From a virus, in IMG/VR virus record IMGVR_UViG_3300033143_001624, positions 1-33,570 of that record: a DNA stretch of 33,570 nucleotides. One strand, given 5' to 3'. Positions within the stretch are counted from its first letter, which is position 1; each line of letters starts with the position of its first letter. Positions 1,035-14,300 of this stretch are shown one piece after another. A model generated the notes under the pieces. It did no database searches. It was not told the origin of the DNA and was given only the letters and a program-made list of their open reading frames with translations. The position numbers were made by a program, and so were the translations under genes.

Positions 1035-1522
1035 GAATAATCGCCATACTAAGCATTTTACTAATAACATCGTGCGCTACTATAAAAAAAAACAGATATG
1101 ATCGTAAGTGTGCTAAATTTGACTGTATTAAGAAAACCTACGTTTTAGATTCTACATTTGTAACGGAAATAAAAGACACAACCTATATTACCAAAGAAGG
1201 AACTACTGTTTATTTAGAAAACCCATGTGCAGAGCTTTGTGATGAATTTGGACAACTTAAACCGTTTGAGAAAGTAACTGTAAAAGATGGCATTAAAAAC
1301 ACGATTAAAAGCGTTGGTAATGTTATAGTGTCTGAGTGCGACTTGGATTCTATGAAGCAAGTAAATACTACATTAAGAGAAGAAATATTTAGACTGGAAA
1401 GCCAGACAATCGAAGTACCACGAAAAAAGACATGGTTTGAAAAGCTTCAATCAATCTGGTTCTACATTTCCATTACAGCTGTAATTGTATACTTAGCACT
1501 AAAGATTAAAAGGGTATTTTAA
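1031..1522 (+). CDS. Candidate unimolecular spanin (lipoprotein with C-terminal TM)
   Basis: A 163-residue protein starting with a lipoprotein signal (MRIIAILSILLITSC; lipobox I-T-S-C, lipidated Cys15) and ending with a membrane segment (about residues 141-158, SIWFYISITAVIVYLALK) and a basic tail KRVF. A protein lipid-anchored in the outer membrane and also spanning the inner membrane is the defining plan of a u-spanin such as phage T1 gp11, which fuses the two membranes in the last step of lysis. The ectodomain has four further cysteines in its first half and a charged helical part near residues 100-135. It is the last rightward gene of the lysis cassette. No sequence homologue is recognised; the call is from topology and position. 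Confidence 0.6.
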   Translation: MRIIAILSILLITSCATIKKNRYDRKCAKFDCIKKTYVLDSTFVTEIKDTTYITKEGTTVYLENPCAELCDEFGQLKPFEKVTVKDGIKNTIKSVGNVIVSECDLDSMKQVNTTLREEIFRLESQTIEVPRKKTWFEKLQSIWFYISITAVIVYLALKIKRVF

Positions 1523-1697
1523 ACTCGGTTAACCTTTTTGCTTCTCGTTCAATTTTCTTATAGTCTTTATTTATAGCATCTCTAAACAATACCCTTAAAT
1601 AAGTATTAGGGTTTATTCCTATCTTCTTTAACTTTTCTCTGTATATCATCTCTTTTTCAGAAAAGCTAACTGTTTGAGGTATAAGTTTTTGTCTCAT
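1506..1697 (-). CDS. Small ribbon-helix-helix-like protein, unknown role
   Basis: A 63-residue basic protein, last gene of the leftward operon. The N-terminal strand-like stretch (LIPQTVSFSEKE) followed by two predicted helices (REKLKKIGIN and TYLRVLFRDAI) resembles a short ribbon-helix-helix DNA-binding fold, but this is only a weak similarity. Its 3' end overlaps the convergent spanin gene by 17 nt. The start follows the spacer at 1698-1739, which holds a 31-bp sequence found again at 14059-14089. Confidence 0.5.
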   Translation of the reverse strand: MRQKLIPQTVSFSEKEMIYREKLKKIGINPNTYLRVLFRDAINKDYKKIEREAKRLTEFKIPF

Positions 1698-1700
1698 ATT

Positions 1701-1731
1701 AAACGTTTAAAGTATTGTTTAGCGATATATT
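1701..1731 (-). repeat. 31-bp spacer repeat, copy A (inverted copy at 14059-14089)
   Basis: On the minus strand this reads AATATATCGCTAAACAATAC followed by TTTAAACGTTT. The same 31 bases occur exactly on the plus strand at 14059-14089. Both copies lie in spacers between small accessory genes, directly after the stop codon region of the preceding gene. The flanking genes differ between the two places. Confidence 0.9.
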
Positions 1732-1739
1732 GTAAAACA

Positions 1740-1994
1740 CTAGCTGCATTTTAAGTGTATATTCATTCTTTGTGTTTTTTTACAACACTTGCAAGTCCTA
1801 TCTATTGGTGTGTAATAGTTTCCATACCTAACTTTCCAAAAGTGTATATTGTTTGAACATAAAAAGCGTTTTACAATATTATGTAAAAAAACATATTTAG
1901 GCTTTTTCTCTTTCTTAACCCACCCTTTCGGTTTAGGTATTTTTATCGTTACTGTTGTTTCTTTTTTCATAATACGTTTTTTACATTCAAACAT
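1740..1994 (-). CDS. Small basic zinc-finger-like protein (DUF1660-like)
   Basis: An 84-residue lysine-rich protein. The C-terminal half has the pattern FLCSNNIHFWKVRYGN ... RTCKCCKKTQRMN, which resembles small prophage proteins of the DUF1660 type, where Cys/His residues in a C..H and CxxC-like arrangement probably bind zinc. The ATG at 1994 is used here; an internal ATG at 1970 (MKKETTVTIKIPKPKGW) is an equally plausible start. It lies 12 nt after the zinc-ribbon gene, so both are probably co-transcribed leftward. Function unknown. Confidence 0.55.
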   Translation of the reverse strand: MFECKKRIMKKETTVTIKIPKPKGWVKKEKKPKYVFLHNIVKRFLCSNNIHFWKVRYGNYYTPIDRTCKCCKKTQRMNIHLKCS

Positions 1995-2006
1995 TATAAA
2001 ATATTA

Positions 2007-2144
2007 CTACTCTACATCCTCTATATCATCGCTGCCACAATTAGGGCATTTATTACAAGGGTCGTCTATGTCGCTTGTTTCGCTTACTAATTCGCTTGGG
2101 TCGCCTTGCCAAAAACAGTTATTGCATTGTATTTCTTCTTCCAT
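2007..2144 (-). CDS. 45-residue zinc-ribbon mini-protein
   Basis: A short acidic protein (MEEEIQCNNCFWQG start) with two zinc-binding pairs: CNNC near residue 7 and CNKCPNCG near residue 30. Two CxxC knuckles about 20 residues apart make a classical zinc ribbon. The C-terminus is acidic (SDDIEDVE). It sits in the leftward operon directly downstream of a palindromic spacer that also occurs at 13208-13272. Function unknown; small zinc ribbons in phages often bind host proteins or nucleic acids, but nothing here decides between these. Confidence 0.65.
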   Translation of the reverse strand: MEEEIQCNNCFWQGDPSELVSETSDIDDPCNKCPNCGSDDIEDVE

Positions 2145-2172
2145 TTTTATAGTTTTTATTTATTAATAAACG

Positions 2173-2236
2173 ATTTTATAATATTGCTGTAAAACGCAAC
2201 CACAAACTACACTCAAGGCGTTTACAGTTGGTCATT
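2173..2236 (-). repeat. Imperfect-palindrome spacer, copy A (inverted copy at 13208-13272)
   Basis: On the minus strand the left arm is AATGACCAACTGTAAACGCC and the 30-bp right arm starts TGGTTGCGTTTTACAGCAAT. The arms pair with each other (CTGTAAA with TTTTACAG, CGC with GCG) leaving unpaired bases. Both arms recur exactly at 13208-13227 and 13243-13272, but the central 14-15 bases between the arms differ. It begins just after the stop of the preceding small gene. Confidence 0.9.
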
Positions 2237-2244
2237 GGGCGTAA

Positions 2245-2532
2245 TTAAGCTAGCTCACCAGTTACTACAAATTTATTAAGTATTGGTAGTAATTCTGCTA
2301 CTTGCTCCCTTGTTAAGTGCATCCTACTGTCTACGCTAAAAGTTTTAGGCATTTCTGTTTCAATATACCTTCCTCTATTTTCATCTTCAAAAATAACTAG
2401 TTTAGGGTTGTCTATTCCTAACCATATTGCATCCTCTGTTGCCAAACTGCTTTTTTGTATTGAGCAATTATTATCGTAACGGTCTTTAAATTCTGCAATT
2501 CTAAAACCTCTTTCTGTTTTTTTTGTTTTCAT
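2245..2532 (-). CDS. Conserved-looking phage protein of unknown function
   Basis: A 95-residue soluble protein. The N-terminal half (ERGFRIAEFKDRYDNNCSIQ ... WLGID) looks like a beta-sheet domain, followed by SRMHLTREQVAELLPILNKF, a helical motif I have seen repeatedly in small phage proteins without a known role. It belongs to the leftward small-gene operon and is flanked by palindromic spacers on both sides. No catalytic residues stand out. Confidence 0.6.
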   Translation of the reverse strand: MKTKKTERGFRIAEFKDRYDNNCSIQKSSLATEDAIWLGIDNPKLVIFEDENRGRYIETEMPKTFSVDSRMHLTREQVAELLPILNKFVVTGELA

Positions 2533-2563
2533 CTTTCTTTAAGTTAAAAACTACTGCCAATAC

Positions 2564-2633
2564 GGTGTATAGCAAATAGCCTGTTAATATTAGTTCTTTT
2601 ATTTATCTGTTGTGCTGGCTAAATGCCATACAC
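2564..2633 (-). repeat. Palindromic spacer hairpin between small genes
   Basis: Two 17-nt arms, 2565-2581 and 2617-2633, can form a long hairpin on either strand (GTGTATGGCATTTAGCC against GTGTATAGCAAATAGCC as reverse complement; one wobble and a two-base mismatch). The minus-strand left arm also folds by itself as TGTG..TGGC-loop-GCCA.CACA, similar to the short hairpin at 13503-13523. It directly follows the stop codon of the gene at 2640-2966. Confidence 0.7.
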
Positions 2634-2639
2634 AGGTCA

Positions 2640-2966
2640 TTAACGGTAAGTATCTAGCACATTTTCACGTATGTCTGTTATAATGTCGCAAAATTCGGCA
2701 TGCGTTCCATGGTCTCTTAACCATTCAAGTTTTATGGCTATCTGTTCTTGTATTGCTCTGTCAAATTTGAACAGTACTTTTTTAGCAGTTTCTAAGGGCA
2801 CTATACCGTTAATATCAGCTAAATCAACATTAACTGGTCTGGTGCTTTCTAGTTCACTTTTTAGCACTTTTTCTATTTCACTTTCTAGTGTTATTTGGTT
2901 GCAATTATCAACATGTCTATCTATAATCGCCATTATCGCATCTAATATTTTATCTGTATCAGCCAT
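2640..2966 (-). CDS. Small accessory protein, paralogue of the 13812-14060 product
   Basis: A 108-residue protein whose first 50 residues match the product of 13812-14060: both have KILDAIM/KVLDEVM, then LE..IE..LK, then RPVNVDLADI versus KPVNVALADV. The second half differs completely; here it is helical and charged (KKVLFKFDRAIQEQIAIKLE). The two genes also share their upstream 22 bases (2975-2996 and 13777-13798). No known domain is recognised. It is in the leftward small-gene operon. Confidence 0.6.
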   Translation of the reverse strand: MADTDKILDAIMAIIDRHVDNCNQITLESEIEKVLKSELESTRPVNVDLADINGIVPLETAKKVLFKFDRAIQEQIAIKLEWLRDHGTHAEFCDIITDIRENVLDTYR

Positions 2967-2974
2967 ATTATCAG

Positions 2975-2996
2975 TTATTTGTTAAAGTTGTTTAGC
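2975..2996 (-). repeat. 22-bp leader repeat, copy A (inverted copy at 13777-13798)
   Basis: On the minus strand this is GCTAAACAACTTTAACAAAT plus AA, identical to 13777-13798 on the plus strand. In both places it lies 8-13 nt before the start codon of one member of the paralogous gene pair (2640-2966 and 13812-14060), so it is a leader that travelled with the gene or a shared spacer end. Confidence 0.85.
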
Positions 2997-3004
2997 CTTG
3001 TTCA

Positions 3005-3157
3005 TTAATCCATAGAATTAGCTCTATTTATTTCATCTAAGCAATGGTCTACAATCTTTTGCTGTTCTTCTACATCTTCTGAAAACCGCCAACCATCATT
3101 GTGAAGTGTTAGCCCGTTTATTGCTCTTTTCTTTATTTCTTCTTTGGTTTCTTCCAT
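3005..3157 (-). CDS. 50-residue acidic protein, unknown function
   Basis: The frame reads METKEE-like from ATG at 3157 (MEETKEEIKKRAINGLTLHN) to TAA at 3005, with a conserved-looking NDGWRFSEDVEEQQK segment and a C-terminal helix. It starts 1 nt after the stop of the ribbon-helix-helix gene, so it is the second gene of the leftward operon and probably translationally coupled. No family recognised. Confidence 0.5.
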   Translation of the reverse strand: MEETKEEIKKRAINGLTLHNDGWRFSEDVEEQQKIVDHCLDEINRANSMD

Positions 3158-3158
3158 G

Positions 3159-3305
3159 TTATTGGTTTAAATGTTTGTCTAAAATTGATTCAACATAAGA
3201 CTGTTTACTAATTGTTAACCCTTTTTTCTTTAGCCTGTTATACTCTTTATCTAGTTGAGCTAATATAACTGGATCAATTTGCCATGTTACTGATTTTTTT
3301 GCCAT
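3159..3305 (-). CDS. Small ribbon-helix-helix-type regulator candidate
   Basis: A 48-residue protein, first gene of the leftward operon. It begins with a beta-strand-like stretch (MAKKSVTWQIDPVILAQLDK), then helix, a turn (KKGLTISKQ) and a second helix (SYVESILDKHL), which is the ribbon-helix-helix plan of small phage and plasmid repressors. Position at the head of the operon, facing a divergent promoter region with direct repeats (3332-3343 and 3361-3372), suggests control of its own or the rightward promoter. That role is inference. Confidence 0.6.
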   Translation of the reverse strand: MAKKSVTWQIDPVILAQLDKEYNRLKKKGLTISKQSYVESILDKHLNQ

Positions 3306-3331
3306 AATTTTTTAAGTTTTAGTTATTTATT

Positions 3332-3372
3332 AATACAAATATAGCAAATAAATAAATATAAATACAAATATA
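3332..3372 (-). promoter_or_regulatory. Leftward promoter with 12-bp direct repeats
   Basis: AATACAAATATA occurs twice (3332-3343 and 3361-3372). Read leftward, each copy contains TATATTTG, the Bacteroidota -7 box TAnnTTTG. For the proximal box (3336-3343) the TTTG of the distal copy (3365-3368) is 21 nt upstream, an acceptable -33 element. The promoter would drive the operon starting at 3305. The paired copies may also be operator sites. Confidence 0.55.
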
Positions 3373-3444
3373 ATTCAAAGAAAATAAAAATAAAATTTCT
3401 TTGTACTGTTTGTAATGGTTGTGGGATTATTTTAAAAATAAACC

Positions 3445-3474
3445 TTGCTATTTAAAATATATTTATTACCTTTG
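3445..3474 (+). promoter_or_regulatory. Rightward early promoter
   Basis: TTG at 3445-3447, a 19-nt spacer, and TACCTTTG at 3467-3474 match the Bacteroidota housekeeping promoter exactly (TTG - about 19 nt - TAnnTTTG). It lies 25 nt before the first rightward gene at 3500 and is the likely start of the early operon. With the leftward promoter at 3336-3372 it makes a divergent control region. Confidence 0.75.
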
Positions 3475-3499
3475 AAATATAAACCAAAAATATAAAACT

Positions 3500-3745
3500 A
3501 TGTATACACAAGACAGACAAATCACACCAACAGAAGAACAAAGCTCTATTAAAGATGCTAGTACTGAAAAAAGATATGTAGCTACTATGACTATGTATGT
3601 TTATGCGGATAATGCAGAAGAGGCTAAAAAAGAAGCTGAAGACTTTGCTTTAGGAATAGATAAAAAACTAGACAATCAATGTACAATCGAAGAAATTGGA
3701 GAGATGCCGTTCGGTAGTGTTGGAGGTTATACTAAAATAGATTAA
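3500..3745 (+). CDS. First early-operon protein, unknown function
   Basis: An 81-residue acidic protein. After a polar N-terminus comes KRYVATMTMYVYADNAEEAK KE-type sequence: two strands followed by an alanine- and glutamate-rich helix, the small beta-alpha fold seen in many short phage proteins (the product of 10282-10494 has a similar plan). It is the first gene after the strong promoter at 3445-3474, so it should be made early and in quantity. No family identified. Confidence 0.6.
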   Translation: MYTQDRQITPTEEQSSIKDASTEKRYVATMTMYVYADNAEEAKKEAEDFALGIDKKLDNQCTIEEIGEMPFGSVGGYTKID

Positions 3746-3747
3746 TT

Positions 3748-3891
3748 ATGCTAGAAGCTATAAAAAAAGAATACTTAGAAAGGAGTATTTACTTCTTTAG
3801 GAACAATTTAAAAGCAGACCATTTAAGAGGCTCGTTTAATGTTAAACTTTATAATAAGATAAAAGATGCAAAAAGAGATAGAGGGTTGTAA
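3748..3891 (+). CDS. 47-residue basic protein, unknown function
   Basis: Starts 2 nt after the preceding stop at ATG 3748 and overlaps the AP2-domain gene by 26 nt. The sequence (MLEAIKKEYLERSIYFFRNN ... FNVKLYNKIKDAKRDRGL) is helical, aromatic and basic. The tight spacing favours a real gene. No function can be assigned. Confidence 0.45.
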   Translation: MLEAIKKEYLERSIYFFRNNLKADHLRGSFNVKLYNKIKDAKRDRGL

Positions 3892-4234
3892 AAACGGATT
3901 GGAAGAAAAAGTTCCAACCTCTAAGCATAGAGGCATAACATATGACAAAACAAATAAAAAATACCAATTGCACGTTATGATAAACAAAAAACAAGTCCAA
4001 CTAGGCAGGTTTAAGACTGAACTAGAGGCTTATAATTATAAAATAGAGTTTTTGTACGGATTCTCAAGAAAGTCACAAGAGGTGGGAGAGTTTCATGTTT
4101 CAGATGTTAGAGTTGTAGATAACCATAAAAAAGAATTAATAAGACTGTTGGAGTCTGGGGAGGTGTCTCCTAATAAAAAGAGTAAGATTCTTTTCACTCT
4201 TTCCCAAATACACAATTATTCAAAACAATTATAA
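3866..4234 (+). CDS. AP2-type DNA-binding domain protein
   Basis: A 122-residue protein. Residues about 21-64 (HRGITYDKTNKKYQLHVMIN ... LGRFKTELEAYNYK) follow the AP2 pattern: G-I/V, three strands with W/Y..V/I, LG.F.T..EA, then an amphipathic helix. AP2 domains bind DNA and in phages usually occur in homing endonucleases or free-standing regulators. No nuclease motif is present here, so a DNA-binding accessory or regulator is more likely. The C-terminal 55 residues are helical and unassigned. Confidence 0.65.
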   Translation: MQKEIEGCKNGLEEKVPTSKHRGITYDKTNKKYQLHVMINKKQVQLGRFKTELEAYNYKIEFLYGFSRKSQEVGEFHVSDVRVVDNHKKELIRLLESGEVSPNKKSKILFTLSQIHNYSKQL

Positions 4235-4252
4235 ACAATAAAAACAAAAATC

Positions 4253-4603
4253 ATGGAAGTAACAGGAAAAGTAAAATTAGTAAAAGAAACAGAAGTAATT
4301 TCTGAAAAGTTTCAAAAGCGAGAATTAATCTTAACGGATAACTCAAACGAGAAATACCCACAGCATTTATGTATTCAATTTACACAAAAGAATGTTGATA
4401 TTTTAGACGGGTTAAAGACAAATGAAGAAATTAAAGTACACATAAATTTACGTGGTAGAGAATGGACCAGCCCAGATGGAGTAGTTAAATACTTTAATAC
4501 TATTGAAGGCTGGAGAATTGAAAATATAAATACAGGCAGTAATGATGCACCAGCAAGTATAGTAGACAACGAAGATGATGATTTACCATTTAATATAAAC
4601 TAA
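4253..4603 (+). CDS. DUF3127 protein with SSB-like acidic tail
   Basis: A 116-residue protein. MEVTGKVKLV ... FQKRELILTD ... YPQHLCIQFTQ ... INLRGREWTSPDGVVKYFNT matches what I remember of DUF3127, a Bacteroidota family with an OB-like beta fold. The C-terminus DNEDDDLPFNIN ends in an acidic run plus LPF, like the DDDIPF tip by which single-stranded DNA-binding proteins recruit partners. I infer an SSB-type role in phage replication and recombination, supported by the annealase-like, HNH and RusA-like genes that follow. The tip carries NIN after LPF, so it is not an exact SSB end. Confidence 0.75.
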   Translation: MEVTGKVKLVKETEVISEKFQKRELILTDNSNEKYPQHLCIQFTQKNVDILDGLKTNEEIKVHINLRGREWTSPDGVVKYFNTIEGWRIENINTGSNDAPASIVDNEDDDLPFNIN

Positions 4604-4614
4604 AAAACTAAACT

Positions 4615-5040
4615 ATGGAAAGAGAAAAAATAGAAGCGCTTTATAGAAAGTATGAATTAGCAAAAAGTGACGTGTTTAAGCATAAGCATTATTTAATTAT
4701 AACAAGACAGGGCATTGATAAAATACAAGCCAAAGAAAAGATATTTATTAAATACGATGCCGTAAAAGTAGACCCTGAGTTTTGCGTTGTTAAAGCTTCC
4801 GCTGAAAAAGAAGGAGCTAAGATAGAAACCTTTGGAAGTGCTAAGTATGGTTCTAAAACTTGGGTAGATGGTAAAGATGGAGCCAAAGGAAAATGGAACG
4901 AAACGGGTAATACATCCACCTGGTATGTAATGGAAATGGCAGAAAAAAGGGCTATGTCTAGGGCTGTACTTAAACTAACAGGGTTTTATGAGTTGGGAGT
5001 ATTTGGAGAAGATGAAAGCGAAGATTTTAAAAAGAGTTAA
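4615..5040 (+). CDS. Possible single-strand annealing protein
   Basis: A 141-residue protein. The N-terminus (KYELAKSDVFKHKHYLIITR .. GIDKIQ) and the C-terminal motif MEMAEKRAMSRAVLKLTGFY followed by ELGVFGEDE recall the 'KRA.SRA...TG.Y..G..GE' end of Erf- and Sak-like annealases. Those are usually longer, so this could be a short relative or a different recombination accessory protein. Directly after the SSB-like gene (11 nt gap) and before HNH and RusA-like genes, which fits a recombination module. Similarity is judged by eye only. Confidence 0.45.
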   Translation: MEREKIEALYRKYELAKSDVFKHKHYLIITRQGIDKIQAKEKIFIKYDAVKVDPEFCVVKASAEKEGAKIETFGSAKYGSKTWVDGKDGAKGKWNETGNTSTWYVMEMAEKRAMSRAVLKLTGFYELGVFGEDESEDFKKS

Positions 5041-5249
5041 TGGAAATTTGCACTATAATCATATCAAAAGAATTGCTGCAAACACTTGTAGATTCAGAAG
5101 CTATAACAACAGATGATTTTACTGTCAAATTAGTTAATGAAGATTCTTTTGATTATAGTAGCAATGAAGCATGGGAAGCTCAAAAAAAGATAAGTACAAA
5201 AGCTTATAAGAAACTAAAAGAAATAGAATTTAATATTAGAAACAAATGA
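5040..5249 (+). CDS. 69-residue protein, unknown function
   Basis: Starts by TAATG overlap with the preceding gene and overlaps the next by 4 nt, so it is embedded in the early operon. The sequence has a hydrophobic start (MEICTIIISKELLQTLVDSE) and an acidic middle, with a basic helical C-terminus. No motif recognised. Confidence 0.55.
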   Translation: MEICTIIISKELLQTLVDSEAITTDDFTVKLVNEDSFDYSSNEAWEAQKKISTKAYKKLKEIEFNIRNK

Positions 5250-5608
5250 GTATAGTAATACAATCAACAATCGAAAGTGTTCAAACTCGTAAAGATAAGA
5301 CACTAAAAATAACTATTGGCAGTCAAGAACTAAACGCTGAACAGATGGCAGAGCTAATGAGTTTAAACCAGTCTTTAGCTTTTACTTATATTTCGCCTAA
5401 AAGTATCACAGAAGCTGAAAAAGAAGCTATTGATGCAGTAGAAGTAGAAACGCCAAAACAAAGTAAAAGTCAGAGCGCAAGATTAAGAAATACTTTGTAT
5501 AAAGTTTGGGAAACTACACGGACTGGCATAGACTCATTTGATGATTTTTATAATATAGAGACTGAACGTATTATCGAACACTATAAATCTAAAATAGAAA
5601 CGCTATGA
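5246..5608 (+). CDS. Early protein, unknown function, conserved-looking C-terminus
   Basis: A 120-residue protein. The N-terminal part reads like a short beta-helix domain (VIQSTIESVQTRKDKTLKIT, ELNAEQMAELMSLNQ). The C-terminal part (ARLRNTLYKVWETTRTGIDS, DDFYNIETERIIEHYKSKI) resembles a C-terminal module I associate with Bacteroidota phage early proteins, without known function. Overlaps both neighbours by 4 nt. Confidence 0.6.
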   Translation: MSIVIQSTIESVQTRKDKTLKITIGSQELNAEQMAELMSLNQSLAFTYISPKSITEAEKEAIDAVEVETPKQSKSQSARLRNTLYKVWETTRTGIDSFDDFYNIETERIIEHYKSKIETL

Positions 5609-5697
5609 ACTTAAAAGACGAATTAAACGAAGGTGGAAGCTTTACAAAAGGGCTTGTAATATTGGTAACACTAATAATAATGATATGCCTAATTTAA
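5605..5697 (+). CDS. 30-residue single-pass membrane peptide
   Basis: ATG at 5605 overlaps the preceding stop (ATGA) and the frame runs to TAA at 5697, overlapping the HNH gene by 13 nt. A polar start (MNLKDELNEGGSFTKG) is followed by a clean membrane segment (LVILVTLIIMICLI) up to the last residue. Coupled overlaps and the hydrophobic end favour a real small gene; function unknown. Confidence 0.4.
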   Translation: MNLKDELNEGGSFTKGLVILVTLIIMICLI

Positions 5698-5957
5698 ACA
5701 AACACACAAAAATATATTTTGAATACTTCGGTTTTGATATGGGCGACTTTGTGGGGTGCGAGTGTTGTGGAAAAAAAGCTATTGATATTCACCACATCGA
5801 AGCTAGAGGGATGGGAGGCAATCCAAACGGGGATAAAGATGTTATAGAAAACCTTCAAGCTGTATGTAGAGAATGCCATTTGCGTTACGGCGACAAGAAA
5901 GAGTATAAGGAAATGTTAAAAAAAGTTCACTTAAAATACATGGAAATTTATGGCTAA
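5685..5957 (+). CDS. HNH endonuclease
   Basis: A 90-residue protein with a complete HNH module: CECC (Cys25/Cys28) and CREC (Cys61/Cys64) zinc pairs, the catalytic IDIHHIEARG motif (His36-His37), Asn56 in ENLQAVC, and His65. It covers almost the entire protein, so this is a free-standing nuclease. In phages such enzymes serve in packaging, recombination or homing; here it lies between recombination genes and just before the RusA-like resolvase, so a recombination or replication role is more likely than packaging. Confidence 0.85.
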   Translation: MPNLNKHTKIYFEYFGFDMGDFVGCECCGKKAIDIHHIEARGMGGNPNGDKDVIENLQAVCRECHLRYGDKKEYKEMLKKVHLKYMEIYG

Positions 5958-6285
5958 AATTAATATAACACCATTATCTGTTAATAAAGCTTGGCAGGGT
6001 AGACGGTTTAAAACTCAAGACTACAAGAAATACGAAGCAACAGTTTTAATGATGCTGCCAAAAATAAAGATACCAGAACCGTATTTTAAAATTAATATTG
6101 AATTAGGGTTTAGCAGTAAATTATCAGACATTGACAATCCTGTAAAAATGATATTAGATATATTGCAAAAGAAATACAAGTTTAACGATAGAGATATACA
6201 TGAATTAAACTTATCAAAAAGAATAGTAAAAAAAGGAAAAGAATATTTTAAATTTAACATTGAGCATACAGAATTATTATTTTAA
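5950..6285 (+). CDS. RusA-like Holliday junction resolvase
   Basis: A 111-residue protein with the RusA signature: LSDIDNPVKMILDIL supplies Asp60, Asp62 and Lys66, and the following KFNDRDIHEL supplies Asp80 and Asp82, the acidic set that holds the metal in RusA. Basic residues around (KRIVKKGKE) fit DNA contact. RusA cuts four-way DNA junctions made by recombination. It overlaps the HNH gene by 8 nt. Length is close to the usual 120 residues. Confidence 0.85.
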   Translation: MAKINITPLSVNKAWQGRRFKTQDYKKYEATVLMMLPKIKIPEPYFKINIELGFSSKLSDIDNPVKMILDILQKKYKFNDRDIHELNLSKRIVKKGKEYFKFNIEHTELLF

Positions 6286-6303
6286 CCAAAAAACAAAACA
6301 ACT

Positions 6304-6549
6304 ATGAAACAACAAAAACAATTAAACAGCACTTACTTAGTAGCTAAGTATTTAAAAGGAAGAAAACAGAGCTATATCCACAAAATGAAGTTAGAAACGA
6401 AAAGTAATAACGTTGGAGAGAGGGTAAGGCAATTACGAAATAAGTACCAGTGGAAAATTGAGACAGTAAGCGAAGGGGTTAAAAACGGAGTGAAAGTCTA
6501 TCACTACTTACTTGTTGAAAGTGGAGAGATGCCTAAAAAGTTTAGATAA
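6304..6549 (+). CDS. Small winged-helix-like DNA-binding protein
   Basis: An 81-residue basic protein. The run NSTYLVAKYLKGRKQSYIHK, then VGERVRQLRNKYQWKIET and VKVYHYLLVE resembles the phage HTH_39-type winged helix (helix, helix with 'R..LR..G..I', then a beta wing). It follows the resolvase after 18 nt with an A-rich leader. A regulatory or replication-accessory role is possible; no direct evidence. Confidence 0.5.
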   Translation: MKQQKQLNSTYLVAKYLKGRKQSYIHKMKLETKSNNVGERVRQLRNKYQWKIETVSEGVKNGVKVYHYLLVESGEMPKKFR

Positions 6550-6551
6550 TT

Positions 6552-7095: not shown

Positions 7096-7139
7096 ATGTA
7101 ATTTGTATTAAAATAATACTTATATTAGCAGAAGTTATT

Positions 7140-9067: not shown

Positions 9068-9080
9068 AACAAAATATAAA

Positions 9081-9308
9081 ATGAGAGAAACAGTTTATAA
9101 TATAATTTACGTAGCAATAGGATGGGCTGTATGGTTATTTTTTATAGTCCTAGTAAGTAGCTGTGGAGTACTAGCAATGACTTCTGATGTATCTAATGAA
9201 GAAACGATAGGAAGTTATACGCCAATATACAAACAATTAGAGGGTTATGAACATTGTTATAATATTGAATTTCAAGGAAAAGATTATATTTATATGAAAA
9301 AACGTTAA
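9081..9308 (+). CDS. Small membrane protein or lipoprotein
   Basis: A 75-residue protein with an N-terminal hydrophobic segment (IIYVAIGWAVWLFFIVLVSS) ending in VSSCG, which fits a lipobox (V-S-S-C), followed by a polar 45-residue domain with QLEGYEHCYNIEFQGKDYIY. It may be an exported or membrane-bound accessory protein, for example acting at the envelope. No family recognised. Confidence 0.5.
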   Translation: MRETVYNIIYVAIGWAVWLFFIVLVSSCGVLAMTSDVSNEETIGSYTPIYKQLEGYEHCYNIEFQGKDYIYMKKR

Positions 9309-9326
9309 ACTAAAAAACTAAAAACT

Positions 9327-9518
9327 ATGAAAGTAACAATTAAAAGACAAAGAGTAAAAGATGTATTTGAAGTACATTATGGACAAAGAGACAACCATAC
9401 ACATTTTATATCTTTAGAGTGTGAAACGGAAAATTCAATGATAATAACAAATAAGATACCAATAGCTCCAAACGAGTTAAGAAGTAGCTTTAATAGGCTT
9501 ATGGATGGGGTTGTATAG
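9327..9518 (+). CDS. 63-residue beta-rich protein, unknown function
   Basis: Preceded by an A-rich leader (AAACTAAAAACTATG). The protein is basic at its start (MKVTIKRQRVKDVFEVHYGQ) and looks like a small beta-sheet (HFISLECETENSMIITNKIP). No motif recognised. It is the first of several short genes separated by non-coding palindromic spacers. Confidence 0.5.
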   Translation: MKVTIKRQRVKDVFEVHYGQRDNHTHFISLECETENSMIITNKIPIAPNELRSSFNRLMDGVV

Positions 9519-9614
9519 AACAAAACAAAACCCTTATCCCGTTGATGGGGAGGGGTGGTCAATTAGGAATTAACGAGGTAGTGTAAAATTTCGTTTTAAT
9601 GAATTTTAAACATT

Positions 9615-9799
9615 GTTGTGGGTATGTAAGCCTACGACTTAAACAAATAAATTATGAAAATAGGAAAATACAAAGGGCAAGAAGTAAAAGTTTATGATAG
9701 CGGAAATGAATTTATAGTAGAGTTTCCAAATGGAGCAACAATAACTATGACTGATGTTTCAGAAATAGATTTCAGTTAAGTAGGCTTATTACCTACAAC
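9615..9799 (+). repeat. Inverted repeat bracketing a small gene
   Basis: The left arm GTTGTGGGTATGTAAGCCTA + C (9615-9635) and the right arm GTAGGCTTATTACCTACAAC (9780-9799) are nearly perfect reverse complements (about 17 of 20 positions with one indel). The 41-residue gene at 9654-9779 lies between them, with the right arm starting at the base after its stop codon. The rest of the spacer 9519-9614 holds no gene that I can support. Confidence 0.75.
9654..9779 (+). CDS. 41-residue protein between inverted repeats
   Basis: ATG at 9654 with leader AAACAAATAAATT, TAA at 9777. The sequence MKIGKYKGQEVKVYDSGNEF IVEFPNGATI-type is a compact beta barrel-like pattern (K.G..V.VY..G..F.V.F.NG), followed by an acidic C-terminus (SEIDFS). 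The strand pattern is that of a small SH3-like or Kow-like domain, but it is too short to name. Bracketed by the 9615-9635/9780-9799 inverted repeat. Confidence 0.5.
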   Translation: MKIGKYKGQEVKVYDSGNEFIVEFPNGATITMTDVSEIDFS

Positions 9800-9848
9800 G
9801 CATTGTGTATGGTGCGTATGCCGATAGGCTATGCAATATACACGTTGT
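9795..9848 (+). repeat. Long imperfect palindrome between small genes
   Basis: The outer arms ACAACG..GTGTAT (from 9795) and ATACACGTTGT (to 9848) pair with four extra bases on the left side; the inner part GCGTATGCC / GGCTATGC (about 9814-9832) pairs again. CACGTTGTT at the right end also occurs in the spacer at 12688-12696. It lies between the stop at 9779 and the next start at 9887. Confidence 0.7.
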
Positions 9849-9886
9849 TGTATGGTGAAGCGAACTGTAAAAAATTAATATTTGAA

Positions 9887-10021
9887 ATGAGCAAGAAATT
9901 AACGAAAGAAGAACTTGAAAAGAAAAAGAAGTTTCATAGCAAAAAGGTTGATTACTACCAAAAGAAAATTGACAAAATAGAAGCTGACAAAAACAGGATA
10001 GGTTTTAAGTGGTATGATTAA
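9887..10021 (+). CDS. 44-residue basic coiled-coil protein
   Basis: The start is set at ATG 9887 (MSKKLTKEELEKKKKFHSKK), because an upstream in-frame start at 9803 lies within the palindromic spacer. The protein is almost all helix and very rich in lysine (VDYYQKKIDKIEADKN), ending RIGFKWYD. This resembles short proteins seen in Bacteroidota small-gene clusters, without a function known to me. Confidence 0.55.
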   Translation: MSKKLTKEELEKKKKFHSKKVDYYQKKIDKIEADKNRIGFKWYD

Positions 10022-10044
10022 TTTTTTATTGCATACAATACTGA

Positions 10045-10074
10045 GCTATTTCGCGTTTTAATGCGAATAATAGC
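10045..10074 (+). repeat. Hairpin spacer
   Basis: GCTATTTCGC (10045-10054) pairs with GCGAATAATAGC (10063-10074) with two unpaired bases, loop GTTTTAAT. It is followed by A- and T-rich sequence and the start of the frameshifted gene at 10120. No long T-run follows, so it is not a clear terminator. Confidence 0.6.
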
Positions 10075-10119
10075 AAGCGTTATCAAAACGTTTTAATGGT
10101 TGACTTAAAAAAATAAAAC

Positions 10120-10280
10120 ATGGATGATAAAGTAATAAGACAAATAATAATAGGAATGTTTGCAGAGGCAGCGTTTAAAGAGGAAGAACAATTTACATTA
10201 GAAAACTCCAAAAAAACTCCAAAAAAGCTGTTAAGTTTGCAGATGAAGTAATGGAATTATTAAAACATAAAAACAAATAA
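10120..10280 (+). pseudogene. Small gene frameshifted by an 11-bp tandem duplication
   Basis: From ATG 10120 the frame reads MDDKVIRQIIIGMFAEAAFK..EEEQFTLENSKK and then TPKKLLSLQMK to TAA at 10251. An 11-bp unit, AACTCCAAAAA, is present twice in tandem (about 10204-10225). Without the second copy the frame continues as AVKFADEVMELLKHKNK to the TAA at 10280, which looks like the original C-terminus. The duplication contains A AAA AAG (10221-10227), a canonical -1 slippery heptamer in the right register, so some full-length 53-residue product could still be made. Function unknown. Confidence 0.6.
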
Positions 10281-10281
10281 C

Positions 10282-10494
10282 ATGGAAGGAAAAGAAATAA
10301 TACAACACATTAGCTACAAACCTACAGGAGATGAATACGCTACTAAAGTAGAAATCCCAGCAGAAACAAAAGAAGAAGCTATACTTATAATCAAAGAAAG
10401 GTTATACGAAAAAGGGTTTAAAGACTTAGAAGATAAAATCGAAAGAGGCTATAAATTTGATGTAATTGATACGTATCATAAAGAAAAAAATTAG
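10282..10494 (+). CDS. 70-residue acidic protein, unknown function
   Basis: Starts one base after the stop of the restored frame of the preceding gene. The sequence (MEGKEIIQHISYKPTGDEYA, TKVEIPAETKEEAILIIKER, LYEKGFKDLEDKIERGYKFD) has two beta strands, then a helix with E-E-A pattern, similar in plan to the first early-operon protein at 3500-3745. It ends immediately before a -7 promoter box. No family recognised. Confidence 0.55.
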   Translation: MEGKEIIQHISYKPTGDEYATKVEIPAETKEEAILIIKERLYEKGFKDLEDKIERGYKFDVIDTYHKEKN

Positions 10495-10502
10495 TATATT
10501 TG
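10495..10502 (+). promoter_or_regulatory. Possible promoter -7 box before the terminase genes
   Basis: TATATTTG fits TAnnTTTG exactly. The nearest upstream TTG (10466-10468) is 26 nt away, longer than the usual spacing, so the promoter may be weak. It sits 22 nt before a terminator-like hairpin. Confidence 0.4.
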
Positions 10503-10524
10503 TATTAATCATAGTTTAATTTTT

Positions 10525-10560
10525 CCTCCCTAGGCTGTGGAAGCGGCTAAGGGAGGTTTT
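10525..10560 (+). terminator. Intrinsic terminator or attenuator before terminase
   Basis: CCTCCC (10525-10530) pairs with GGGAGG (10551-10556), extended by TAG/CTA with one bulged A, followed by TTTT. It lies between the accessory genes and the terminase small subunit. Because a -7 box lies only 22 nt upstream, it could end the previous unit or attenuate a short new transcript. Confidence 0.7.
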
Positions 10561-10583
10561 ATTGAAAACAATAATAATCAACA

Positions 10584-10847
10584 ATGCCATTTAAGAAAGG
10601 ACAAAGTGGAAATGTAAAAGGTCGAGAAGTAGGGAGTAAGAATAAAGTTACTTTACTAGCCCTTGATGTTAAAGATGTTGTTTTTAATGCGTTCCAAGAC
10701 TTACAGGCAGACCCAAAGAATAATCTTATTGCATGGGCTAAAGAGAATCCAACAGAGTTTTACAAGATAGCAGCAAAGTTAATTCCAACAAATATAGAGG
10801 CTAAGGTTTCCAATACTATTAACGTAATACCTCCAAAAAGTGATTAG
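10584..10847 (+). CDS. Terminase small-subunit candidate
   Basis: An 87-residue protein starting MPFKKGQSGNVKGREVGSKN, the N-terminal signature of DUF5681-like phage proteins that often lie in front of terL. The helical part (FQDLQADPKNNLIAWAKENP, EFYKIAAKLIPTNIEA) is typical of small terminase or terminase-associated proteins in Bacteroidota phages. It directly abuts the large subunit (stop at 10847, ATG at 10848). DNA recognition for packaging is inferred from this position. Confidence 0.65.
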   Translation: MPFKKGQSGNVKGREVGSKNKVTLLALDVKDVVFNAFQDLQADPKNNLIAWAKENPTEFYKIAAKLIPTNIEAKVSNTINVIPPKSD

Positions 10848-12290
10848 ATGGCAGACATCGATATTAACTGGTGTAAGTGGTCGGAGATAATCAATGAGAG
10901 GTTTGAGCCTTTAGTAGAAAATACAGATAGATACATAATAGCATACGGTGGTAGAGGTTCGAGCAAATCGGATTGGGCTGCAAAGAAATTAATATACAGG
11001 TGTTTAAGTGAAAAGTATTTTAGATACGTTTTAGTTCGTAACACATACGCTACAATAAAAGATTCCAGCTACCAAACAATAAAAGATATAATACACGACT
11101 TAGGTCTTGAGTCTTTATTTAGGTTTAAGATACAACCGCTAGAAATAGAATGCATGAACGGTAACAAGTTCTTAGCAAGGGGTTGTGATGATGCTACTAA
11201 GTTAAAGTCTATAAAAGACCCAACAGGTGTATGGTGGGAAGAGGACGTGCCAGACGAAAGCGATTTTATCACTATTACTACATCGGTAAGAACGAGTAAA
11301 GCAGATTACTTACAGGAGATATTTACTATTAATCCAGAAGTTGAAGGTAACTATCAGGAAAACTGGTTTTGGAAAAGATTCTTTAAGGGACATATTGAAA
11401 AGAGTTTTAGCGATGTTACTGTAATTCAAGTGGAAGAGTTAAAGATTGAACTAACATACACAGTACATCATAGTTGGCATAAAGATAATCGCTGGTTGCC
11501 TAATGCTTTTGTTGCTCAGTTAATGCAGTTAAAGGTAGAAAACCCGTACTATTATACTATCTATTGTAATGGCGAATGGGGTAATAAGCAAACGGGAGGT
11601 TTGTTTTATAAGCATTTTGATAGAGCTAAAAGTGTAGACCCTACAATTGTTTACAATCCAGACCAAGCAATACACCTATCTTTTGACTTTAATGTAAACC
11701 CATACATGAGTGCTACGATATGGCAAATAGACGGTAAGACGGCTAAGTGTATTGATGAGATAGCATCTGTTAATCCCGACAATACAACAGTAGGAGTGTG
11801 TAGAGAGTTTGAGCGTAGATATTTTAATCACAAAGGAGGTTTGTTTATTTACGGAGACCCATCAGGAAGGCAGCAAGACACCAGAACAGATAAAGGCTAT
11901 AATGACTATACTATTATATTTAATGAACTAGAAAAATACCACCCGATTGAAAGGGTAGCCAATAAGCACCCTCCTGTAGTTACTAGAGGTAACTTTATTA
12001 ATACTGTATTCTTGAAAGGGTTTAACGACTTGAATATACTCTTTAGCGATAAGTGTAAGTACATGCTTAACGATATGCTATTTGGTAAAGAGGCTAGTGA
12101 TGGTACTAAGCTAAAAGAGAAAACAAAAGTTGACGGGGTTACTTTTGAAAAGTATTTTCACCATGCAGATACCATGGATTACTTTCTTTGTGAAGCCTTT
12201 ATAAACGAGTTTGAAGAGTACCAGCACGGCAGCACCCCAGTAATAAGAAGTTACGGCGCAAATCCAACCAACAAAAGAAAAACGTATTAA
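10848..12290 (+). CDS. terL: Terminase large subunit
   Basis: A 480-residue two-domain packaging motor. The ATPase half has Walker A GGRGSSKS (residues 34-41) and Walker B VWWEED (128-133). The nuclease half has HLSFDFNVNPY (Asp280), IYGDPSG (Asp337) and HHADTMDYF (Asp441/Asp444), the acidic metal-binding set of the RNase H-like domain of Terminase_3-type proteins. It cuts concatemeric DNA and pumps it into the prohead. Length is normal and all key motifs are intact. Confidence 0.95.
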   Translation: MADIDINWCKWSEIINERFEPLVENTDRYIIAYGGRGSSKSDWAAKKLIYRCLSEKYFRYVLVRNTYATIKDSSYQTIKDIIHDLGLESLFRFKIQPLEIECMNGNKFLARGCDDATKLKSIKDPTGVWWEEDVPDESDFITITTSVRTSKADYLQEIFTINPEVEGNYQENWFWKRFFKGHIEKSFSDVTVIQVEELKIELTYTVHHSWHKDNRWLPNAFVAQLMQLKVENPYYYTIYCNGEWGNKQTGGLFYKHFDRAKSVDPTIVYNPDQAIHLSFDFNVNPYMSATIWQIDGKTAKCIDEIASVNPDNTTVGVCREFERRYFNHKGGLFIYGDPSGRQQDTRTDKGYNDYTIIFNELEKYHPIERVANKHPPVVTRGNFINTVFLKGFNDLNILFSDKCKYMLNDMLFGKEASDGTKLKEKTKVDGVTFEKYFHHADTMDYFLCEAFINEFEEYQHGSTPVIRSYGANPTNKRKTY

Positions 12291-12293
12291 TGT

Positions 12294-12323
12294 TTGTTTT
12301 GTAACAAGATGTTGTTATATTTG
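12294..12323 (+). promoter_or_regulatory. Strong promoter for the small-gene block after terminase
   Basis: TTG at 12294-12296, 19 nt, TATATTTG at 12316-12323: an exact Bacteroidota promoter. It begins 4 nt after the terminase stop codon and drives the accessory block starting at 12359, so this block can be expressed independently of the packaging genes, as expected for moron genes. Confidence 0.75.
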
Positions 12324-12358
12324 TACAAATTAATAACATTAATTAATAAAATAAAACT

Positions 12359-12628
12359 ATGAATTTAACACTTAAAAATCAAAAAGGACTAAGCGATTAT
12401 TCGCATGCCGTATTGGAAATTGTACGTAAACTAATAGACAGGTTCAAAATAAACCTTTTTAAATATTTATTTACAGAAAATGAAAAATGCTTATTAAACC
12501 AAGCGTTGAATTTGCAAAAACAAGAAACATATAAAGATGCAAGATGCGGACTTTCTTGTGATTATAAACAAGACCTTGAAGATGTAGATAATCTTTTAGA
12601 AATGTGTGAAAATAAATTATGGAATTGA
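12359..12628 (+). CDS. Small accessory protein, unknown function
   Basis: An 89-residue helical protein with four cysteines (ENEKCLLNQALN, DARCGLSCDYKQD, LLEMCENKLW). First gene after the promoter at 12294-12323. The distribution of cysteines is not a clear zinc motif. No family recognised. It is followed by a 92-nt palindromic spacer. Confidence 0.55.
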   Translation: MNLTLKNQKGLSDYSHAVLEIVRKLIDRFKINLFKYLFTENEKCLLNQALNLQKQETYKDARCGLSCDYKQDLEDVDNLLEMCENKLWN

Positions 12629-12646
12629 GTGTTGTAGATAATGATA

Positions 12647-12698
12647 GTGTATGCTCTGTATGGAGTGCAACGGAATATGGAGTATGACACGTTGTTAT
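12647..12698 (+). repeat. Palindromic spacer between small genes
   Basis: GTGTATGCTC (12647-12656) pairs with GAGTATGACAC (12680-12690) with one bulged G. The right arm continues CACGTTGTTAT, sharing CACGTTGTT with the palindrome at 9795-9848. The preceding bases include ATAATGATA, similar to the TAATGA found at the start of other spacers in this block. Confidence 0.65.
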
Positions 12699-12720
12699 AC
12701 TCTTTTAAACAAAACAAATT

Positions 12721-12912
12721 ATGAAAGACTTATTTAAAGCATCAGTAAAAAGTAACGCAAAGATTGAATTATTAGAACCTAATTATGAAGGTATAGCTAA
12801 AGTATTATCTGAGTTTGAAAAACTATACAAGGTTTGCGATAACAAAGAATTATTAGATAAATGTTTAGAGAACTTTTGTGTACCTAAACACTTAATTACA
12901 GAAAATAATTGA
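12721..12912 (+). CDS. 63-residue accessory protein, unknown function
   Basis: ATG at 12721 after leader AAACAAAACAAATT. The protein is amphipathic helical (EGIAKVLSEFEKLYKVCDNK, LLDKCLENFCVPKHLI) with three cysteines. No family recognised. It ends at 12912 and is followed by a 47-nt spacer with TATAATGAGGACAAG, again with TAATGA near the gene end. Confidence 0.5.
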   Translation: MKDLFKASVKSNAKIELLEPNYEGIAKVLSEFEKLYKVCDNKELLDKCLENFCVPKHLITENN

Positions 12913-12959
12913 GTATAATGAGGACAAGTAAAGATATTTGCGGATAAATAACGATTAAG

Positions 12960-13196
12960 ATGAAATTAGAAGATATTGTAAAACAACTTGCAAACAGGAT
13001 TAACCAACCACACTACATTGAGCACTGGTTGAAAAAAGTAAGAGATACCGCCTATAAAAAAGGGCTTGAAGACGGAAAAGCAGAGCAATTAGCTTTACTT
13101 GATGTTAGTAAAGAGTGCGAACACCCCTTTGCTATGGTAATGAGTAAATGTAACGGAGAAATAAATAAGTGCTACAAGTGCGGTAAAGATTTGTGA
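12960..13196 (+). CDS. Small protein with C-terminal zinc knuckle
   Basis: A 78-residue protein. The N-terminal 50 residues are helical (MKLEDIVKQLANRINQPHYI, TAYKKGLEDGKAEQL). The C-terminus has CEHPF ... SKCNGEINKCYKCGKDL: one Cys/His pair and CYKCGK, which should bind zinc. The upstream part KKG.EDGK is similar to EKGWKEA in the product of 13812-14060. Function unknown. Its stop is 11 nt before the palindromic spacer at 13208-13272. Confidence 0.55.
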   Translation: MKLEDIVKQLANRINQPHYIEHWLKKVRDTAYKKGLEDGKAEQLALLDVSKECEHPFAMVMSKCNGEINKCYKCGKDL

Positions 13197-13207
13197 GCAT
13201 TTTTACT

Positions 13208-13272
13208 AATGACCAACTGTAAACGCCATTGAGCTTATTGCATGGTTGCGTTTTACAGCAATATTATAAAAT
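13208..13272 (+). repeat. Imperfect-palindrome spacer, copy B (inverted copy at 2173-2236)
   Basis: The left arm AATGACCAACTGTAAACGCC (13208-13227) and the 30-nt right arm (13243-13272, starts TGGTTGCGTTTTACAGCAAT) are identical to the minus-strand copy at 2173-2236. The 15-nt centre is different. Arms pair as CTGTAAA/TTTTACAG and CGC/GCG with unpaired bases. Confidence 0.9.
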
Positions 13273-13300
13273 GTATTTTAACAATTAAAAACTAAACAAA

Positions 13301-13495
13301 ATGAACTGGATAAAAAAAATAATTAAAGATTTAATTGCTTGGAATGAGAAAATAAAAAGCGAAAGGAGAGCAGAAATAACAAGAGCGCAATATGCTTTGT
13401 GGGATGCACAAGCAAGATTAAAAAAGGTAGAAGATGAAATTGAAGAAATAAGGCTAAGAAAAGCTGAAAGATTGCGTAAGGCTAATATTTTATAA
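13301..13495 (+). CDS. 64-residue coiled-coil protein
   Basis: ATG at 13301 after leader AAAACTAAACAAA. The start is amphipathic (MNWIKKIIKDLIAWNEKIKS) and the rest is a continuous charged helix with heptad spacing (ARLKKVEDEIEEIRLRKAER). The N-terminal part might associate with a membrane. No family recognised. The stop is followed within 8 nt by the hairpin at 13503-13523. Confidence 0.55.
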   Translation: MNWIKKIIKDLIAWNEKIKSERRAEITRAQYALWDAQARLKKVEDEIEEIRLRKAERLRKANIL

Positions 13496-13502
13496 TGGAC
13501 GA

Positions 13503-13523
13503 GTGTATGGCAAGTGCCAACAC
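13503..13523 (+). repeat. Short hairpin spacer
   Basis: GTGT-A-TGGC, loop AAGT, GCCA-ACAC: an eight-base-pair hairpin with one bulged A. GTGTATGGC also occurs in the minus-strand spacer at 2564-2633, which has the same short fold. It follows the stop of the coiled-coil gene (TAATGGACGA before it). Confidence 0.65.
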
Positions 13524-13555
13524 AGAACTTAATTGAAAACACTAAATATTGAAAC

Positions 13556-13756
13556 ATGGAAGAACCTAAAAATGAAAACAAACAGGCATTTGCTATACGC
13601 AATGTTAGCAACTGCCCCGACTTAACTGACCTGTGGTTTATAACCAATGGTAAAAAGCAACGAGGTACAATAACTGAAGAAGAGGCAAAAGAAATTTACA
13701 ATGCTCTGAACACTTTAGAAAAGCACGAACTATGCCAATTGAAATTTGGAATTTAG
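13556..13756 (+). CDS. 66-residue accessory protein, unknown function
   Basis: A soluble protein with an apparent beta strand region (AFAIRNVSNCPDLTDLWFIT, NGKKQRGTITEEEAKEIYNA) and a C-terminal helix-turn (LEKHELCQLKFGI). The order 'strand, NGKKQRG, T-EEEA' suggests a small alpha/beta fold. No family recognised. Followed by a spacer that contains the 22-bp repeat at 13777-13798. Confidence 0.5.
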   Translation: MEEPKNENKQAFAIRNVSNCPDLTDLWFITNGKKQRGTITEEEAKEIYNALNTLEKHELCQLKFGI

Positions 13757-13776
13757 GGTTTGTTGCTAATGATAAT

Positions 13777-13798
13777 GCTAAACAACTTTAACAAATAA
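13777..13798 (+). repeat. 22-bp leader repeat, copy B (inverted copy at 2975-2996)
   Basis: GCTAAACAACTTTAACAAAT plus AA is identical to the minus-strand sequence at 2975-2996. The preceding bases GTTTGTTGCTAATGATAATG allow a weak palindrome with GCTAAACAAC here. It lies 13 nt before the start of the paralogue gene. Confidence 0.85.
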
Positions 13799-13811
13799 AC
13801 TACAAAAGATT

Positions 13812-14060
13812 ATGGATATAGAAAAAGTATTAGATGAAGTAATGCACGTTATTAGAAAGAATGTTGATTACTTTAATGAAGCTAGTTTAGAGCTTAAAAT
13901 AGAGGAAGCACTAAAGGAATTAGAAACCGCCAAACCAGTTAATGTTGCTTTAGCTGATGTTAGCGGTTCGTTTGAAGAAGGGTACGAAAAAGGATGGAAA
14001 GAAGCAACCTCAGAAGCGTGTAAAGAGATAGCAAAGAACTACCAACCTAATGAACGCTAA
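13812..14060 (+). CDS. Small accessory protein, paralogue of the 2640-2966 product
   Basis: An 82-residue protein. The first half matches the minus-strand gene at 2640-2966 (KVLDEVM, SLELKIEEALKELE, KPVNVALADVSG). The second half is unrelated to that gene and carries EEGYEKGWKEATSEACKEIA, similar in style to the zinc-knuckle protein at 12960-13196. A shared N-terminal domain with a swapped C-terminus suggests modular exchange. Function unknown. Confidence 0.6.
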   Translation: MDIEKVLDEVMHVIRKNVDYFNEASLELKIEEALKELETAKPVNVALADVSGSFEEGYEKGWKEATSEACKEIAKNYQPNER

Positions 14061-14089
14061 TATATCGCTAAACAATACTTTAAACGTTT
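14059..14089 (+). repeat. 31-bp spacer repeat, copy B (inverted copy at 1701-1731)
   Basis: AATATATCGCTAAACAATAC followed by TTTAAACGTTT, identical to the minus strand at 1701-1731. It starts inside the stop codon of the 13812-14060 gene. The downstream 46 nt to the next start hold no other visible element. Confidence 0.9.
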
Positions 14090-14135
14090 TAAAACAACTA
14101 ATAATCACAGAATCAAGTATTTAAGATTGAAAAAT

Positions 14136-14300
14136 ATGTACACAATAAACAATAAAGAATACGCTGGAACAATCAAAAAGATTGCAGAGTCATACGGCGC
14201 TCCATACAGGAGGCTTTTAACAGACTTAAAAAAGTATGGCAATTCACACTTTAGGGTGGGTGGTAAGTTGTATTTTGTAAAAAAAATTAATAAATTATAA
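14136..14300 (+). CDS. 54-residue basic protein with HTH-like pattern
   Basis: ATG at 14136, TAA at 14298. The sequence NNKEYAGTIKKIAESYGAPY followed by RRLLTDLKKYGNSHFRVGGK reads like a helix-turn-helix (IKKIAESYGAPYRRLLTDL) with a short beta hairpin after it (HFRVGGKLYFVKK), as in small DNA-binding excisionase or Cro-like proteins. It is 2 nt before the coiled-coil gene. A DNA-binding role is a guess from this pattern. Confidence 0.5.
   Translation: MYTINNKEYAGTIKKIAESYGAPYRRLLTDLKKYGNSHFRVGGKLYFVKKINKL

Follow-up and report, generated by a model that had tools for sequence, protein, structure and literature searches.

We analysed the 33,570-nucleotide IMG/VR virus record IMGVR_UViG_3300033143_001624 (positions 1 to 33,570, hereafter the window), in which runs of small genes are separated by palindromic spacers. 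The analysis indicates, with a probability that we place at roughly 0.68, that these genes are integron-type cassettes and that the spacers are attC-like sites, lying in clusters without an integrase and inverted in polarity relative to their genes. Many of the sites carry an altered core, with ATT in place of GTT. The features concerned are given below, where P0 to P4 are spacers of Polaribacter phage P12002L, L004, L049 and L083 are other phage contigs, and PVNV is a gene family.

1506-3305, minus strand: left block of small leftward genes, from the open reading frames
1701-1731, minus strand: 31-bp spacer element without a hairpin before a 63-aa gene, exact inverted copy of 14059-14089
1993-2002, minus strand: 5' box ATTTTATAAT of the spacer after a 45-aa gene, complementing the S8 3' box 10/10 across the intervening gene
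2173-2241, minus strand: S8, attC-like spacer, core AAT/ATT, palindrome copy 1 (97 bp, 85.6% to 13208-13303)
2554-2647, minus strand: S7, attC-like spacer, core AAT/ATT, inner stem GTGTATGGCA, aligning with P4
2640-2966, minus strand: 108-aa cassette gene, PVNV family, paralog of 13812-14060
2975-2999, minus strand: PVNV leader GCTAAACAACTTTAACAAATAA, repeated at 96% identity in 13774-13798 and present in L004 and L083 as well
9570-9619, plus strand: S1, attC-like spacer, core AAC/GTT, loop CGTTTTAATG, aligning with P1 and P0
9654-9779, plus strand: 41-aa cassette gene between S1 and S2
9792-9855, plus strand: S2, attC-like spacer, core AAC/GTT, two nested helices, aligning with P2
10031-10084, plus strand: S3, attC-like spacer, core AAT/GTT, read directly from the sequence
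12634-12702, plus strand: S4, attC-like spacer, core AAT/GTT, its 5' box forming the left junction of the L004 exchange
12645-14054, plus strand: block replaced in full in L004, where five other genes take its place
13202-13272, plus strand: S5, attC-like spacer, core AAT/ATT, second copy of the palindrome, matching L049 at 88% along 100 bp
13487-13535, plus strand: S6, box ATTTTATAAT plus hairpin GTGTATGGC, complementing the S5 3' box 10/10 across gene 13301-13495
13774-13798, plus strand: leader of the 82-aa PVNV gene
13812-14060, plus strand: 82-aa cassette gene, PVNV family
14055-14089, plus strand: box CGCTAAT together with the 31-bp element, where the right junction of the L004 exchange falls

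The original prediction had described the left and right blocks and had overlooked a third one at 9570-10084, whose three further palindromes, S1-S3, are the cleanest attC-like sites; nor had it recognized the kinship with attC sites, the box complementarity by which the units are defined, or the inverted polarity. The window holds three clusters of attC-like sites, with at least two sites less than 4 kb apart and no integrase nearby. Compared with the pattern RYYYAAC ... GTTRRRY, the core is AAC/GTT in S1 and S2, AAT/GTT in S3 and S4, and AAT/ATT in S5, S7 and S8. The outer (R) and inner (L) helices of an imperfect palindrome were recognized in S2, S4, S7 and the L049 spacer L049e, most clearly in the last (z -6.4), and are absent from several other spacers.

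In integron cassettes, the start box and the end box derive from one site and are complementary. When the 3' part of spacer n was compared with the 5' region of spacer n+1 in eight phage arrays, the boxes flanking one gene had a mean exact complement of 7.49, versus 6.43 (sd 0.21) in permutations within arrays, none of 5000 of which reached the observed value. Examples are TAACGCTAAT in L049, TTTGCTAAT and CCTACAAT in L004, and GAGTATAA and ATTTTATAAT in the window, where the S4 3' box TTATACTC pairs exactly with its complement GAGTATAA, the box at 12911-12918, and the S3 5' box CATACAA complements the S2 3' box TTGTATG. In P12002L and the window's early block, some of the longest complements lie off the boxes. 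The chromosomal array of the flavobacterial genome G077 showed the same complementarity, for example TGTACCTAAC with GTTAGGTACA.

The cores themselves also vary in a paired manner. Across 24 sites, AAC-GTT occurred seven times, AAT-GTT four times, AAT-ATT 13 times and AAC-ATT never (p 0.001, for core pairs read by eye at sites that are not independent), and in the late blocks, L049 and L083 the core is mostly TAATG ... ATATTA. Judged from the sequences, the core change appears to be a compensatory path via a G-T wobble. Because integrases normally need G|TT and many sites have A|TT instead, a part of the sites may have no activity or may be recognized by a variant enzyme, and attC searches requiring a GTT core would probably miss most of them.

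The spacers are also tied to a site of demonstrated function in P12002L, a virulent phage with a cluster of attC sites lacking integron integrases (CALIN). In that work, IntI1 recombined attI1 with P12002L_attC2 (Qi et al. 2023, PMC9892861), which may be any one of the P12002L spacers read here. These spacers have the loop CGTTTTAATG and cores TAACG ... TTGTTA. In alignments scored against 100 shuffles each, S1, S2, S4 and S7 aligned with P12002L spacers above all shuffles, the scores being 18.5 and 19.5 for S1 against P1 and P0 (null maxima 11.8 and 13.7), 22.5 for S2 against P2 (12.5) and 22.2 for S7 against P4 (15.1). A MAFFT alignment of the spacers brought the boxes into register and left the inner stems unaligned; therefore, no covariance model was built.

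Spacers of this kind also occur in the chromosomes of Flavobacteriaceae, and flavobacteria are probably the host group of the window phage. The pattern AACG-stem-CGTTTTAATG-stem-TTGTT matched in 75 of 388 Flavobacteriaceae genomes, with fewer matches for the reversed-pattern control, and some of these palindrome matches are plainly chance, having no stem. A tyrosine recombinase matching TIGR02249 with E below 1e-30, yet under the curated cut-off, was present in 166 of 397 genomes. Directly 3' of the IntI-like integrase, many genomes carry a conserved palindrome whose end reads (C)AATTGTTG or (C)GTACGTTG, and the gene that follows it differs genome by genome, like attI. The G077 protein scored 220.7 bits for NF040815, and its alignment to IntI4 (2a3v) has a gap where IntI4 carries about 43 more residues, a region that we take to hold the IntI-specific patch. 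Two sets of Flavobacteriaceae loci (L088-L107 and L108-L122) likewise encode an IntI-like integrase (about 380-400 aa) that seems to lack the IntI-specific insertion, with an attI-like palindrome directly after it, and some of these genomes have canonical attC cassette arrays.

The polarity of the sites relative to the genes differs between the phage and the chromosomal arrays. Nine palindrome matches in six genomes lay within 20 kb of an IntI-like integrase, all opposite to its orientation by hand comparison, and at chromosomal intergenic sites the palindrome ran against the adjacent genes in 33/33 (28 opposite to both neighbours and five to one, the other neighbour often being distant or absent). 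At the phage sites, the palindrome ran with the adjacent genes in 8/8 (seven with both neighbours, one with one), and no phage site was found at the 3' end of its gene with the normal polarity. Therefore, we describe the phage unit as one that works like an integron cassette, with variant polarity. Since the sites are inverted to the genes, the predicted exchange point would lie in the 5' box at the stop codon, and the spacer body would travel with the downstream gene. This prediction fits both junctions of a block replacement observed in a near-identical phage, and the PVNV leader, which always accompanies its gene.

The replacement was found in the 9.3-kb contig L004, which is 99.88% identical to window positions 14049-21307 and 100% identical to 12531-12644, and which carries a distant PVNV paralog and four unrelated genes between these shared flanks instead of window positions 12645-14054. 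Identity ends after GTAGATAATGA on the left and resumes exactly at CGCTAATATATCG on the right, both junctions falling in a TAAT(G) box at a stop codon. The S4 hairpin was lost in L004 though the upstream gene was kept, and the 31-mer spacer was kept though the upstream gene had changed. The ends of the units are marked by conserved boxes more than by stems, and the spacer body accompanies the downstream gene. The idea of exchangeable gene cassettes, the core of the original prediction, is supported by this case of cassette variation between relatives 99.9% identical, with junctions in the site.

If the small genes are cassettes of the integron type, the spacers would be of the kind seen in Flavobacteriaceae chromosomal integron arrays and in P12002L, and a unit would comprise the spacer body (stem, loop and 3' box), the leader, the gene and a 5' box overlapping the stop codon of that gene. 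The boxes flanking one gene would be complementary because both come from one site, which is whole in the circular unit. Exchange in the 5' box would take place at AA|TG or AA|CG, the reverse complement of C(A/G)|TT, possibly on a single strand, and some sites may still be active. Phage annealing recombination may also reshuffle units at shared boxes. A more specific version, to which we give somewhat less than even odds, is that flavobacterial phages keep their own integron-type cassette lineage, with the recombination site before the gene, exchange at the upstream stop codon and a hairpin in the 5' leader; many of its cores would have moved from G|TT to A|TT by compensatory change, and a dedicated or altered recombinase would have to act in trans.

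Several results weigh against an integron-type system. As the original prediction had stated, no recombinase is visible: the six phage contigs, though possibly incomplete, yielded none of the tyrosine type and no intI gene with an adjacent attI, as a complete integron would have, and the window contig had no PF00589 match. Any integrase would therefore act in trans, supplied by a co-resident element or by the host. When canonical cores (AAC ... GTT, 7-bp exact arm) were scanned for, the window proved no richer than shuffles, S1 and S2 being missed because of bulges and S5, S7 and S8 because they lack GTT, and a looser mechanical attC scan did not separate the blocks from the background. The AAT/ATT pattern showed no clear enrichment over the reversed-pattern control in 397 Flavobacteriaceae genomes. 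Several spacers have no hairpin, and the single-strand DNA folding energies of many single sites are unremarkable. An alignment of the PVNV family matched only the near-identical contig among the viral contigs and nothing in the 397 Flavobacteriaceae genomes. Finally, a single pair of near-identical phages displays the exchange, so that for the L004 event the flanking genes may instead have undergone a double crossover.

Matches to the AAT/ATT pattern in viral contigs look like chance. A search of the genome collection with TGTAAACGCC-N-GCGTTTTACAG was set aside, as the matches were a coding gene in five Flavobacteriaceae and one unrelated alphaproteobacterium, and they served only as taxonomic centres. 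The viral contig L073 encodes a 265-aa tyrosine recombinase (1890-2687) about 0.8 kb from a palindrome of similar appearance, TTAACGGTTAGTGTAAACGCC..GGCGTTTTACACATTGTTG (3464-3493), possibly a phage-borne integrase with a site.

An integrase may not be needed if the relaxed homologous or annealing recombination of the phage shuffles units at short shared boundaries, the palindromes being mere homology. In favour of this, the phage encodes both a RusA-like resolvase and a single-strand binding protein of the DUF3127 type, mosaicism of phages at short homology is well known, the boxes and the 31-mer supply 8-31 bp of identity, and the contigs have no tyrosine recombinase. We nevertheless consider this unlikely, since it leaves unexplained why the boxes around one gene are exact complements rather than direct repeats, why the cores covary from G-C to A-T, and why the spacers are akin to chromosomal integron sites and to those of a phage with a tested attC.

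The repeats themselves were all found where the original prediction had placed them. The 31-bp inverted copy is exact (1701-1731 and 14059-14089; chance expectation about 1e-9), and the palindrome with conserved arms and a different centre proved to be part of a spacer pair of 97 bp at 85.6% identity (2142-2236 and 13208-13303; E 2e-22), in which the copies match exactly along the 20-bp arm and share an identical 30-bp arm, TGGTTGCGTTTTACAGCAATATTATAAAAT. The proposed 22-bp pair is real and extends to 25 nt at 96% (2975-2999 and 13774-13798). However, it is the start of a 73% match running through the paralogous gene (2805-3007 and 13767-13967), and it is not independent of that gene, because the same gene family lies downstream of this leader in all four places where it occurs (twice in the window, in L004 and in L083). 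The hairpin GTGTATGGC of the fourth pair is present at 2633 (minus) and 13503 (plus), but a 9-mer match alone is at chance level. The spacer order, said to differ, does so only in part, as both blocks share the sequence of palindrome 97, one gene and TATTTTATAATG box, and end on the 31-mer. The predicted TAATGA near stop codons was borne out as a TAATG box where the gene ends, seen in 11 of 12 junctions within the blocks versus 2 of 19 elsewhere (Fisher p 1e-5).

Such placement would also suit regulatory modules, a 3' hairpin plus a promoter or leader kept for expression with no role in exchange. All spacers follow the gene direction and sit between a stop and a start codon, the 25-bp leader goes with a single gene family, and repeated start-associated inverted repeats precede unrelated genes in other phages (SAS/ESAS; PMC3203893). 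This explanation is highly improbable, as the complementarity links boxes of neighbouring spacers across a gene, which a local hairpin does not need, and the spacer family also occurs in chromosomal integron arrays. A terminator reading was rejected on inspection, there being no T-run behind the stems looked at.

Other phages carry the same spacers with other genes. L049, an unrelated phage in which palindromic spacers accompany a dozen small genes, matches window positions 13206-13305 at 88% over 100 bp (L049 1990-2087) but has a different gene downstream; a second match starts just past a TAATG box and spans half of the 84-aa gene. A third phage type, L083 (full contig L086), has the same spacers plus the PVNV leader and gene. 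In L003/L010, the 31-mer precedes the same gene as in the window (85% DNA identity, 712 bp) with different upstream sequence; L010 is a distant relative with about 40-60% protein identity in structural genes, and its match stops at the 31-mer, the remaining 47 contig bases not matching. The 31-mer and the palindrome each precede different genes, and among about 40 block proteins compared only the PVNV family and one other gene were in common. The claim that genes beside shared spacers differ except for one paralogous pair (2640-2966 and 13812-14060) stands; the spacers are not confined to this phage, and these two are not tied to one gene. An old inverted duplication of a larger block, with genes later replaced or diverged, would account for the paralogous pair and for the shared order of palindrome 97, gene, TATTTTATAATG box and terminal 31-mer, and yet it can hardly be credited, because the gene contents differ, the PVNV unit has moved and unrelated phages have the same spacers with other genes.

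In the searches for relatives, the near-identical contig was the sole terminase match, and neither megablast nor distant searches of the phage collection matched a spacer. They gave a single gene match: the 89-aa gene (12432-12624) has a 74.6% DNA match in Cellulophaga phage phi19:3 (NC_021789 58256-58448), where it sits among small genes without palindromic spacers. The near-identical contig L011 apparently differs at 10213-10224 by a short indel within a tandem repeat of the 43-aa gene. An extra stem right before a box, GTTAAGTAGGCTTATT(A/G)CCTACAA, is common to the early block and the swapped L004 block (window 9774-9798 and L004:8505-8529; 25 nt, 96%).

The way in which phages come by and exchange their numerous tiny accessory genes is still poorly understood. 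If phages and host integrons shared a site-specific cassette system, genes would have a concrete route between bacterial chromosomes and phages, and the complementarity of flanking boxes would allow units to be recognized computationally. Among known systems, Vibrio-type superintegron cassettes (Vibrio cholerae repeats, VCR) resemble the window in having homogeneous palindromic sites between unrelated small genes, and differ in having an integrase and attI, longer sites and a GTT core. The Flavobacteriaceae chromosomal arrays share the palindrome type (G041), the complementarity rule (G077) and genes in one direction, whereas they have an integrase and sites opposite relative to the genes. The start-associated sequences and their extended forms (SAS/ESAS) of cluster K mycobacteriophages are repeated elements with inverted repeats before unrelated small genes; unlike the window spacers, they have no upstream stop-codon box and no reported cross-gene complementarity, and are tied to the same gene families (PMC3203893). 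The CALIN of P12002L too belongs to a flavobacterial phage, with genes split by palindromes of loop CGTTTTAATG in the same polarity to the genes. However, its sites keep AAC/GTT and its genes include methyltransferases, whereas the late-block sites of the window are mostly AAT/ATT and carry genes of unknown function. The inverted polarity and the G-to-A core change are testable departures from the known attC rules.

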